DNA of 48,103 nucleotides, from positions 1 to 48,103 of the forward strand of contig CAKZUV010000053.1 of NCBI GenBank assembly GCA_937921555.1, in the 5' to 3' direction. The stretch comes from an uncultured Saprospiraceae bacterium (GTDB taxonomy: Bacteria > Bacteroidota > Bacteroidia > Chitinophagales > Saprospiraceae). The stretch's first letter is position 1; each line of letters starts with the position of its first letter. This document shows, piece by piece, positions 3,351-7,470 of this stretch. Under the pieces are notes generated by a model. That model was not told the DNA's origin. It did not search any database and saw nothing but the letters and a program-made list of their open reading frames with translations. Both the position numbers and the translations under genes were made by a program.

Positions 3351-4034
3351 TTACACTTCCCTCTCCTCCCCTACTTCCAGCAAAATCAATTCCTTCCCCT
3401 TATCCGCAAAGGCTTTTTTCGCCGCTGCGTGGTCAATCTCAATATAACCAAAGGTATCGTAGTGACATCCAACAATTTTATCACATTTAATAAAATCACT
3501 GGCAATGACCGCATCTTCGTAGCCCATCGTAAAGTTATCGCCAATGGGCAGAATCGCAAAATCGAGTTTTGGACAGGTCATCGGGATTAGTTGCATGTCC
3601 ATCGTCAGGGCTGTGTCGCCGGCGTGGTAAAAACAAACATCGTCGTTCCAGATCACAAATCCGCCGGGATTGCCCGCGTAGGTACCATCGGGCAGGACGG
3701 AGGAGTGTACCGCGTTGACGTATTTAACGGTACCAAAATCAAATTTGGCTTTACCGCCCTGGTTGAGTGGGTGACCGTCCATCCCTTTGTCTCCGTAGTA
3801 GGTGGTGATTTCGTAGTTGGAAATTATTTTGGCACCGGTATTTTTTACAACCGCTTCGACGTCCGCCACGTGGTCCTGATGTCCGTGGGTGATCAACAGA
3901 TAATCAGCAGGAATATCGGCTATTTTCAGCGTGTCGCTGGCTAGTTTATTTGGAGTGATGAATGGATCAAAAAGAAGGTCTTTTCCATTGATCTGCATAC
4001 CGAATCCGGCCTGACCGTAGTAAGTGATTTTCAT
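3351..4034 (-). CDS. MBL-fold metal-dependent hydrolase (UPF0173/UlaG-like)
   Basis: A metallo-beta-lactamase-fold hydrolase of 227 residues. Seen: the metal-binding motif THGHQDHVAD (HxHxDH), a later histidine in NAVHSSVL, the aspartate-bearing strand YHAGDTALTMD, and a terminal GCHYDTFGYIEID. This matches the cytosolic UPF0173 branch, a relative of UlaG (L-ascorbate-6-phosphate lactonase), but no sugar-phosphate operon surrounds it and its substrate is not evident. The frame is open to 4085, but the family start MKITYYGQAGFG fits the ATG at 4034. A promoter-like TACCTTTC lies about 50 bp upstream on the minus strand (4086-4093), downstream of a terminator at 4119-4174. This suggests independent transcription from the small RNA beyond. 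Confidence 0.85.
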   Translation of the reverse strand: MKITYYGQAGFGMQINGKDLLFDPFITPNKLASDTLKIADIPADYLLITHGHQDHVADVEAVVKNTGAKIISNYEITTYYGDKGMDGHPLNQGGKAKFDFGTVKYVNAVHSSVLPDGTYAGNPGGFVIWNDDVCFYHAGDTALTMDMQLIPMTCPKLDFAILPIGDNFTMGYEDAVIASDFIKCDKIVGCHYDTFGYIEIDHAAAKKAFADKGKELILLEVGEEREV

Positions 4035-4109
4035 AGAGCGTTTTTTTAAATAACGAATATTTGAGCATAAAATGCCGAAAAACAAGAAAGGTAAATTAGT
4101 TTTTTTTAT

Positions 4110-4300
4110 CGAAAAGGCAAAAAAAAAGCGATATCATATTGATGTTCTAAAGAGACATTCAATTATAATATCGCAATTACTTCCTTAATTTGAGAGAGAG
4201 GATAATGGTTGAAAGGAAGTAAGTTTTCATTGGTTCTTTAACAAAAAGGTATAGGATTAAACTTTTCCCTTTTCGAAAAGAATTGTCCATCAATATGAAC
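4110..4300 (-). ncRNA. Predicted structured small RNA, possibly 6S-like
   Basis: No ORF occupies this stretch. On the minus strand a TACCTTTG box (plus 4305-4312) precedes a roughly 180-nt segment that ends in a hairpin plus nine-T tract. The predicted 5' end CATATTGATG (plus 4288-4297 complement) is perfectly complementary to a segment near the 3' end (plus 4135-4144). Next come GACA/TGTC and TTC/GAA pairs, then an unpaired middle, then a perfect 10-bp stem TTACTTCCTT/AAGGAAGTAA around 4177-4222. A rod with a closing 5'/3' stem and a central bubble is the general shape of 6S RNA, and known Bacteroidota 6S RNAs have diverged sequence. The closing stem competes with the terminator stem. A leader or attenuator of the MBL gene is the main alternative. 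Confidence 0.5.
4119..4174 (-). terminator. Intrinsic terminator of the predicted small RNA
   Basis: On the minus strand, GCGATATTATAATTGA (plus 4159-4174) pairs with TCAATATGATATCGC (plus 4128-4142) and is followed by nine T residues (plus 4119-4127). The position fits the 3' end of the transcript starting near 4299. Confidence 0.75.
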
Positions 4301-4304
4301 ACTG

Positions 4305-4312
4305 CAAAGGTA
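4305..4312 (-). promoter_or_regulatory. Bacteroidota-type -7 box for the small RNA
   Basis: The minus strand reads TACCTTTG, a full match to the TAnnTTTG consensus. The expected start site is about 4298-4300, exactly at the beginning of the segment able to form the closing stem. I see no good -33 TTG at the expected spacing. Confidence 0.5.
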
Positions 4313-4641
4313 ATTCAATATCAGAAATGCTGCCTATAACTATGTCTCAATTATCTATCCTAATGTTTATTTCTGCATTTTTCCATAAATTTTCAGAAAC
4401 TACAAAGACAACCTAAAACACTTACTATCAACTATTTACACAAATAAGTGCACAAAAATTCCGTTTTAGGCGAAGGATAAAGTTAAATGCATTCCTGTTT
4501 TTCAGGAATATTATTTAATTTCGTTCCGGAGTGGAAGAAGTTGATACCCGGAAAGCGGAAAAGCAGTATTTGCCCAGGATAATTTCACTCAAAAGACTTA
4601 ATTCCATAATGTTTTGGCATAAAGTCTAAGGAACAAAAACA

Positions 4642-7470
4642 ATGAAAACAATTTTTATCTTTCAGATAAGACTAGCCACGCTATGGGTGCTGGGTTCTTT
4701 TTTATTTCCTCCGGGGCAGCTATACGCCGGGGTACTGGACCTTGTTCCCAATCAGCGTATTTCCCAAAAAGATCTTTCGGCCCATTTCTTACTCGCCGAA
4801 AATCCGGTTCTGTCCGGTGAATCTCCAGATTTTACAACCACGACTTTTACCCGGATTCCGGAAAACTTTATTTTTCATCCCAATCAGGAATACTGGCTCA
4901 AACTAACACTCCGGTCTGCTCATGCCAATCTTCCCGAACAGTGGATTCAGCTGGGCCGTTACGATGAAGTAGCTTTGTACTGTAACCGTAAGCTGGTCGG
5001 CCGGACGGGCAGGGCCGTCAACAGCAATGACTGTATGCATCCGGTTCATCAACACTGTCTGGCGCTGACCTCCTTATCCGCAACGCCCACGGACTATTAT
5101 TTTAGCATTAAGACGGGACGTTTTCAAACCCCACAACCACTATTGGTTGAACTAACGACGCTCAAAAAGCTGGAACATACCAGGAATGAGCAGATTAAAA
5201 ACAATCTTACCTTCTATTTTTTCCGGATCGGTATTCTGGCGATTATCGCTTTTATGACCCTGCTTTCTTTCGCTCAGTTTTTCACCAGTAAAGACAAGAC
5301 CTACCGTTGTTACAGCCTTTATTTATTACTCACTTTTTTTTATCTATTAATTACCTTTGAGCAGGTGAGCTCCTTTAGTTTTTTTATTAAAAATAATTTT
5401 GCCAAATCTTTTCAGGCGCTGATCATTCCCAGCTTGATGCTGAGTTATTTTTTCTACACGCAATTTGTCCGCTGTATTCTGGACACCCGCTCCAGGCAAA
5501 TCCGTTTTGATCGACTCCTGAGAAATTACGGCTTGATGACCTTAGTGTTTGTTTTTCTGGACCTGATGATTGGTTTTGTTTTTCAGGCAGATTTCTATCC
5601 TCATCTGCGGAGTATCTTGCTTATTATAACTTTTGTGATCGCCATGTATATATACGTACAAATCTGGAAGACAAAGGGGATCGTCGCCAGATTGGTACTC
5701 ACCGGATCGGTTATTTTCAGCATCGGCTCTTTTCTGGGTTTTTTATTTACTACTTTTATAAAATTACCTCAGGGTCTGGGTATCTTTTCCAGTGGTCTGA
5801 CCTATATGCAGCTCAGTGTTTTGATAGAAATAATATTTTTCACCATTGCCCTGGCTACCCGTTCGCGACAGATTGAAATTAAAAAAGCAAAGGCCAGCGC
5901 AGATTTAATTACCGAAACCTACGAGAAAGAAAAACTGGCTTACCAAAATGAGAAAAGCAAAGAATTCGAGGCGCGCAGATCCCGGTTTTTTGCGGATACC
6001 AACCACGAATTGCGCTCGCCACTAACGGTTATCCAGGGAGTGGCCGAAAATCTAAACGGCAGCCAGCTTCAGCGTAATATCATTCTGAAAAACACCACCA
6101 ACATGCTCTATCTCATCAATAACATGCTGGACCTGGCCAGAACCGAATCGGGCGATGTTCCCGTAAATATGCTGCAGGATAACTTTGTTAGTTTTTGTGA
6201 ATCGCAGATAGAAGCGTGGACTTATTTTGCCAAAACCAAAGATATTGAAGTGATTTATCAGTCATCTGCCAGTCTGATTTTGATGGATTTTGATGATCAG
6301 AAAATGGAACAGATTTTTTCTAACCTGATGAGCAATGCTGTTAAATTTACGCCGCCCGGAGGGACCATCACGGTGACCACCAACGTACAAAACGAAAAAA
6401 TGGTACTCTCTGTGCAGGATACCGGAAACGGAATCGCCAAAGAGGATCTTCCCAGAGTATTTGACCGGTATTACCGGGCTGAAAATTCCCAAAATCAAAA
6501 AATAGAAGGAACCGGAATTGGACTGGAACTGGTCAAAAAACTGGTGGAGCTGGTCGACGGAACCATTACCGTTTCCAGCAAACTCGACGAAGGATCAACT
6601 TTTGTTTTATGCTTTCCCATCACCAAATTAGCACCCTACGGAAAGGCCAGAATTTCTTCGAATACACTGCTTACCGCAGATACCGAAGAGGCGGTCTTCA
6701 ATGGTACTGCTCCGGACAACGCGCCGGTGATTCTCGTGGTAGAAGATAATCCTGACATTCTAAACTACCTAAAAAATTCGCTCGGACAATGGTATAATAT
6801 GATTACTGCCACCAACGGAGCCGAAGGAATCGCAAAAGCCCGCGAGTCGTTTCCGGACCTGATTATCAGCGATATCAGAATGCCCGTTCAGGATGGATTG
6901 TCTCTGTGTGAAACGCTGAAAAAAGACCTGACTACCAGCCATCTTCCCATTATTTTACTGACCGCTTCTTCGATGGATGAAGATAAAATAAAAGGACTCG
7001 AACGGGGAGCAGATGCCTACGTCACCAAACCTTTTAGCCAGGTTGAACTAAAACTGAGAATAGAAAATCTCCTGCAAGTCAGAAAAAGCTTACATGCTTA
7101 TTTTTCAAAAAATATCAATTCGGAAAGTATTCAGCAAAGTAAAATTTCAAAAGAAGATCAACATTTTCTGGACAACCTGGTCAGCTTTATTAAAAATAAT
7201 ATCGATGATGAACAGATGGATGTCCGGCAAATGATGTCGGCTGTGAACGTCAGCCGCCCTACCCTGCACAGCAAGTTAAAATCACTGACGGGGTGTTCGG
7301 CTACCCAGTTTAAAAAACAAATAAAAATGCAGGAAGCCAAAAGATTACTGGAAGAAGGCCACCGGAATATTTCCGAATTAGCGGATCGGCTGGGGTATAA
7401 ATACGCCAATAATTTTTCCAAGGATTTTAAAAAATGGTATGGTGTCACGCCCAATAAATTTGGCCGGTAA
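4642..7470 (+). CDS. Hybrid two-component sensor: 7TM-DISM histidine kinase, receiver, AraC HTH
   Basis: One 942-residue polypeptide joins sensing, phosphorelay and DNA binding. A signal segment (1-29) precedes an extracytoplasmic 7TMR-DISM-like sensor (about 35-180). Seven or so membrane helices follow (190-405), then a coiled linker (410-450). HisKA has NHELRSPLTV with His455. HATPase has NLMSNAVKFT (Asn565), DTGNGIA (593) and GTGIGL (624). A receiver has acidic ED at 701-702, phospho-acceptor Asp744 and Lys796. A C-terminal AraC-type HTH spans about 855-940, ending in YGVTPNKFG. Such hybrids in Bacteroidota often control nearby polysaccharide-use genes, but no SusC/SusD pair is present here, so targets are unknown. 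The 600-bp upstream gap holds the small RNA on the other strand. It converges on the GAF gene. Confidence 0.93.
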   Translation: MKTIFIFQIRLATLWVLGSFLFPPGQLYAGVLDLVPNQRISQKDLSAHFLLAENPVLSGESPDFTTTTFTRIPENFIFHPNQEYWLKLTLRSAHANLPEQWIQLGRYDEVALYCNRKLVGRTGRAVNSNDCMHPVHQHCLALTSLSATPTDYYFSIKTGRFQTPQPLLVELTTLKKLEHTRNEQIKNNLTFYFFRIGILAIIAFMTLLSFAQFFTSKDKTYRCYSLYLLLTFFYLLITFEQVSSFSFFIKNNFAKSFQALIIPSLMLSYFFYTQFVRCILDTRSRQIRFDRLLRNYGLMTLVFVFLDLMIGFVFQADFYPHLRSILLIITFVIAMYIYVQIWKTKGIVARLVLTGSVIFSIGSFLGFLFTTFIKLPQGLGIFSSGLTYMQLSVLIEIIFFTIALATRSRQIEIKKAKASADLITETYEKEKLAYQNEKSKEFEARRSRFFADTNHELRSPLTVIQGVAENLNGSQLQRNIILKNTTNMLYLINNMLDLARTESGDVPVNMLQDNFVSFCESQIEAWTYFAKTKDIEVIYQSSASLILMDFDDQKMEQIFSNLMSNAVKFTPPGGTITVTTNVQNEKMVLSVQDTGNGIAKEDLPRVFDRYYRAENSQNQKIEGTGIGLELVKKLVELVDGTITVSSKLDEGSTFVLCFPITKLAPYGKARISSNTLLTADTEEAVFNGTAPDNAPVILVVEDNPDILNYLKNSLGQWYNMITATNGAEGIAKARESFPDLIISDIRMPVQDGLSLCETLKKDLTTSHLPIILLTASSMDEDKIKGLERGADAYVTKPFSQVELKLRIENLLQVRKSLHAYFSKNINSESIQQSKISKEDQHFLDNLVSFIKNNIDDEQMDVRQMMSAVNVSRPTLHSKLKSLTGCSATQFKKQIKMQEAKRLLEEGHRNISELADRLGYKYANNFSKDFKKWYGVTPNKFGR

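Follow-up and report, generated by a model that had tools for sequence, protein, structure and literature searches.

The main result of this analysis is a predicted small RNA (sRNA) gene on the minus strand (4301-4119) of the window, by which we mean the whole 48,103-nt stretch of DNA analysed. With a probability of roughly 0.6, we read it as an independently transcribed intergenic sRNA of about 183 nt that is restricted to one genus, is probably controlled by a neighbouring histidine kinase and acts in trans without Hfq. The gene occupies part of an intergenic stretch of 607 bp that separates a leftward gene for an MBL-fold hydrolase (minus strand, 3351-4034; Pfam Lactamase_B_3) from a divergent, rightward gene for a hybrid histidine kinase (plus strand, 4642-7470), the candidate controller, which combines 7TMR-DISM, HisKA, HATPase, response regulator and AraC-type HTH_18 domains. 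The MBL gene, whose product has its nearest named relatives in Saprospiraceae MAGs, stands downstream of the RNA and is not thought to be part of its unit. Two further features of these loci may be recorded here: two tandem copies of a 184-bp sequence (98% match), with short GC-rich sub-repeats, occupy positions 1-362 of the window at the contig end, and in one congener (G001, locus L002, 2680-3150) the MBL gene is followed by the start of a Cas9-like protein (MKKIVGLDLGIASVGWAFV...), named by eye.

The limits of the RNA (4119-4301, some 180-190 nt, with homologues in five congeners) are predicted from the positions of its promoter and terminator. A -7 promoter box of the form TAnnTTTG, TACCTTTG (minus strand, 4305-4312), recurs at the same position in all five genomes with an intact 5' end; the start is placed 3-7 nt past it. 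This box fits the -7 consensus of the Bacteroidota primary sigma factor (PMC7366714, PMC9723704), which would thus be expected to transcribe the sRNA. A conserved TTG at -33 was not found before the box, and the -33 motif is likewise not identifiable in F. johnsoniae (PMC7366714). Read 5' to 3' along the minus strand, the predicted fold opens with a 5' hairpin (UGUUCAU/AUGGACA, 4284-4301), with a hairpin that begins at the same GUUC start also present in the folds of G001, G002 and G005, and continues with a second hairpin (4234-4282) of variable sequence, in whose stead a GCCAG...CTGGC hairpin is found in G002 and G006. There follow a conserved segment, AACCAATGAAAA (4224-4235), which is unpaired in the window fold, carries a CAATGA identical in six of six sequences and constitutes a candidate seed; an internal hairpin, UUACUUCC/GGAAGUAA (4177-4222), with arms TTACTTCC/GGAAGTAA of 8-10 bp (4222-4177) and a CU-rich loop (CCUCUCUCUC, 4201-4192); and a terminator (4119-4174) made up of a 20-bp hairpin (4174-4128) and a T9 tract (4127-4119). 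The internal hairpin is retained in the relatives with small changes, its loop sequence being conserved in part only; in G004 one arm is altered, and a shifted pairing (UUUACUU/AAGUAAA), as read by eye, is still possible. Overall, the 193-nt segment folds at -45.8 kcal/mol (z -4.9) and beats 200 of 200 dinucleotide shuffles. The minus-strand promoter box, internal hairpin and strong terminator reported by the first-pass annotation of this DNA are all present.

Homologues of the RNA were recovered by BLAST in five of the six congeners (G001, G002, G004, G005 and G006), with E-values between 2e-17 and 6e-37. The non-match in the sixth, G003 (64% complete), is uninformative, since the contig that carries its MBL gene stops 279 nt upstream of that gene. 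A covariance model built on the 119 positions at the 3' end gives 114-136 bits in six genomes of the genus and, over 398 genomes of the family, yields only two matches outside it, both at about 37 bits (G133 and G141). These share little beyond a hairpin and a T-rich tail, and with per-genome E-values of 0.004-0.009, which a survey of 398 genomes should produce by chance, they were dismissed as homologues. The same model finds nothing outside the genus at E <= 0.001 in a sample of the order, and homologues are absent from about 390 other Saprospiraceae genomes. As far as sampled, the RNA thus appears to be single-copy and confined to one Saprospiraceae genus, and it belongs to no described Rfam family.

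Three parts of the RNA gene, namely its -7 box, its 3' half and the terminator, are more conserved among congeners than neutral evolution would lead one to expect. The terminator portion (the last 57 nt or so) is 84-91% identical between the window and its congeners, whereas the four-fold degenerate sites of the neighbouring MBL gene reach only 33-59%, and the RNA must hence be under strong selection. It is also non-coding and has its own conserved terminator and promoter, the latter lost in G004, as befits an independent sRNA; the initial suggestion of a novel regulatory small RNA is accordingly backed by conservation of the RNA and of both these elements. Within the terminator, 98.3% of alignment cells are paired across six species and both arms are almost invariant in sequence: no change at all occurs in the hairpin's final 15 nt, in eight T or in most of the opposite arm. 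This invariance of the arms, as distinct from their pairing, suggests a constraint on the hairpin that goes beyond termination. The helices are supported mostly by conservation and thermodynamics, since only six sequences are available and they covary little; the covariation score of the six is matched by 181 of 500 shuffles, and the value for helix 1 is lowered by the MAFFT alignment, which sets one arm of the G001 hairpin off by one column.

The location of the conservation peak, which falls in the terminator, would also be compatible with a 3' hairpin that merely terminates transcription and an otherwise non-functional transcript. Such an explanation is unlikely, however, because the two arms are near-invariant in sequence and not simply kept paired, because conservation extends to CAATGA, to the -7 box and to a block upstream of the promoter, and because, G004 excepted, no co-directional gene ends just before the terminator.

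The candidate controller of the sRNA is the hybrid kinase. An adjacent orthologous kinase (65-100% identical) is present in five genomes, and all five carry the RNA, its promoter and the upstream block. In G004, a fragmented MAG, the kinase was not found, the promoter and 5' end of the RNA are gone, and the gene that lies beyond the kinase in the window directly adjoins the RNA. These five co-occurrences and the single G004 deletion, a small sample, suggest that the kinase may control the sRNA. The upstream block (4332-4374), a candidate regulator site, contains direct repeats of (G)ATAG at a distance of 21 bp, with an ATAGG 20 bp from the -7 box. The block aligns without gaps. Its mean pairwise identity of 72-84% is on a par with that of much of the RNA itself and compares with some 40-55% over a large part of the intergenic DNA around it. 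A 21-bp repeat spacing is compatible with an AraC-family site, and the AraC-type DNA-binding domain of the hybrid kinase would probably exert its control at this block. More tentatively, the two genes might constitute a two-component-system sRNA module, in which the kinase/AraC-type regulator would switch on the sRNA by way of the conserved block and the latter would execute the response post-transcriptionally and without Hfq, using its terminator arms and exposed segment; we consider this extended scheme possible, though doubtful. Two other elements are apparent in the same region. A second box, TACATTTG (4360-4367), precedes the -7 box of the sRNA by a constant 55 nt in four congeners and is degenerate (AACATTAG) in the window; it might mark a tandem promoter. 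A further conserved block (4415-4440; TTGATTATCA-like in congeners, 71% identity) may be another regulator site.

The most likely mode of action of the sRNA is base pairing in trans independent of Hfq. The molecule would end in the 20-bp hairpin and would pair with mRNAs through the exposed AACCAAUGAAAA segment, the CU-rich loop or both. Hfq was undetected in seven genomes by a search that was positive in five control genomes, and Bacteroides is likewise reported to lack Hfq (PMC7366714). When seven genomes were scanned for sequences complementary to the candidate seed, no shared target was evident, and overall the counts were close to those of a reversed control except for an enrichment in G002. 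RNA regulation in the Bacteroidota is poorly understood, no obvious Hfq or ProQ having been found in Bacteroides, and the sRNA offers a tractable test case in this regard, for it is short, single-copy, strongly conserved and located beside a candidate regulator.

The first-pass annotation had also envisaged a 5' leader of the MBL hydrolase gene, that is, an attenuator choosing between termination and read-through into this gene. In five of six genomes the RNA does precede a full-length MBL gene that points the same way, and an antiterminator-like pairing can be drawn in the window. It is in the window alone, however, that this terminator-exclusive pairing, on which the likeness to attenuators and riboswitch leaders rests, is found; no conserved antiterminator exclusive with the terminator is seen in the relatives. 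Moreover, the MBL gene has a predicted promoter of its own, TTG-N19-TAATTTAC (minus strand, 4091-4120), and the layout TTG-N19 or N20-TAAT(T/C)T(A/G)C, beginning within the T tract, recurs in all six genomes. In G006 the MBL protein is cut to residues 182-227 and no second copy was found, whereas RNA and kinase are kept and the RNA attains the highest covariance-model score of the six; in G002 the MBL start is displaced to 338 nt past the terminator (59-84 nt otherwise) by extra DNA with a hairpin; and the RNA element was not found at MBL genes elsewhere in the Saprospiraceae. Unlike attenuators and riboswitch leaders, the RNA is therefore conserved where the gene below it is broken, and a leader function must be deemed quite improbable. 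As a separate observation, the interval between sRNA terminator and MBL start in G002 (L003) and the region upstream of the MBL gene in G003 (L034) contain short extra elements that share CCTTCTATCGT and have long imperfect inverted repeats, possibly representing a REP/MITE family.

Equally, there is little room for a short mRNA encoding a small peptide (e.g. MKTYFLSTIILSLKLRK), whether or not it also had a regulatory role. The ATG within CAATGA is conserved in six of six genomes and is followed in the window by a short hydrophobic open reading frame, but the frames that begin there run to 17, 17, 26, 10, 11 and 10 amino acids, with unrelated ends, and the strongest conservation resides in the untranslated 3' hairpin. 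A conserved small peptide was rejected on the grounds that frame, length and end vary between species, and production of a small protein from the sRNA is thus unlikely.

The folding of the RNA into two mutually exclusive states, which had been put forward as a switch, hinges on a closing stem between TCATATTGATG (4288-4298) and CATCAATATGA (4144-4134). This stem is perfect and overlaps the 3' arm of the terminator, as had been claimed, and comprises 11 bp instead of the 10 bp then given. The duplex between the two ends of the window's RNA is stronger than 99.3% of those obtained with shuffled 5' ends. Nonetheless, the fold that contains it (-39.8 kcal/mol) is less stable by 3.8 kcal/mol than the fold with the terminator (-43.6 kcal/mol), the pair probability of the closing stem is about 0.0004 while all but one of the eleven outer terminator pairs exceed 0.98, and the UGUUCAU/AUGGACA hairpin competes with it for the 5' end. 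Four relatives have a comparable 5' end, and in none of them does it pair with the CATCAATATGA element. The best 5'/3' helices of these four (9-10 pairs) fall in other places and are no better than those of shuffles, 9-32% of the shuffled 5' ends equalling them in length; in three of the four the GUUC start folds into a local hairpin, just as it does in the window, the minimum-energy fold of G006 being different. The closing stem is, on this comparison, a feature of the window's species alone. Its absence from the four relatives and its probability of about 0.0004 leave both the switch and a 6S rod unsupported, the alternative pairing being improbable even in the one genome that allows it. Among close relatives, then, the closing stem is lost, the terminator is kept and the internal hairpin is kept less strongly, a reminder that a pair of alternative folds may look convincing in a single genome and yet disappear once relatives are compared.

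The same evidence bears on the proposal that the RNA is 6S-like. 6S RNA is widespread, Bacteroidota included (PMC7366714), and its hallmarks are a conserved closing stem, a single-stranded central bubble and a terminal loop (PMC4064990). The RNA described here lacks this architecture. It resembles 6S RNA (RF00013) and 6S-Flavo (RF01685) in having an independent promoter, and RF00013 also in length, but neither a closing stem nor a central bubble is conserved in it, and neither model matches at the locus; Rfam searches at the gathering and E <= 10 thresholds gave chance matches only. Across the relatives, 6S-Flavo returned a single sub-threshold match, at 38 of the 85 bits needed, in a genome of another genus (G050). 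A diverged 6S RNA binding RNA polymerase is hence highly improbable: its length of about 185 nt, its own promoter, the 5'/3' complementarity in the window and the fact that the Rfam models detect no other 6S RNA in this genome speak in its favour, but the RNA has no Rfam match, is limited to one genus and folds as separate hairpins in the relatives.

Among characterized regulators, the closest parallels to an independent sRNA of this kind are of two sorts. RNAIII and RsaE/RoxS are sRNAs whose C/U-rich loops bind ribosome-binding sites, and the CU-rich apical loop of the present RNA recalls them; as this loop is only partly conserved, the likeness is best taken as a lead. GibS of Bacteroides thetaiotaomicron and the Rfp RNAs of Flavobacterium psychrophilum, intergenic sRNAs of the Bacteroidota that act in trans and have no known sequence relation to the RNA described here, are also short, AT-rich and transcribed from TAnnTTTG promoters, the independent Rfp transcripts having a median length of 176 bp (PMC7366714, PMC9723704). 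The sRNA of the window differs from them in its 20-bp terminator, which is strongly constrained in sequence, and in its predicted confinement to a single genus of the Saprospiraceae.
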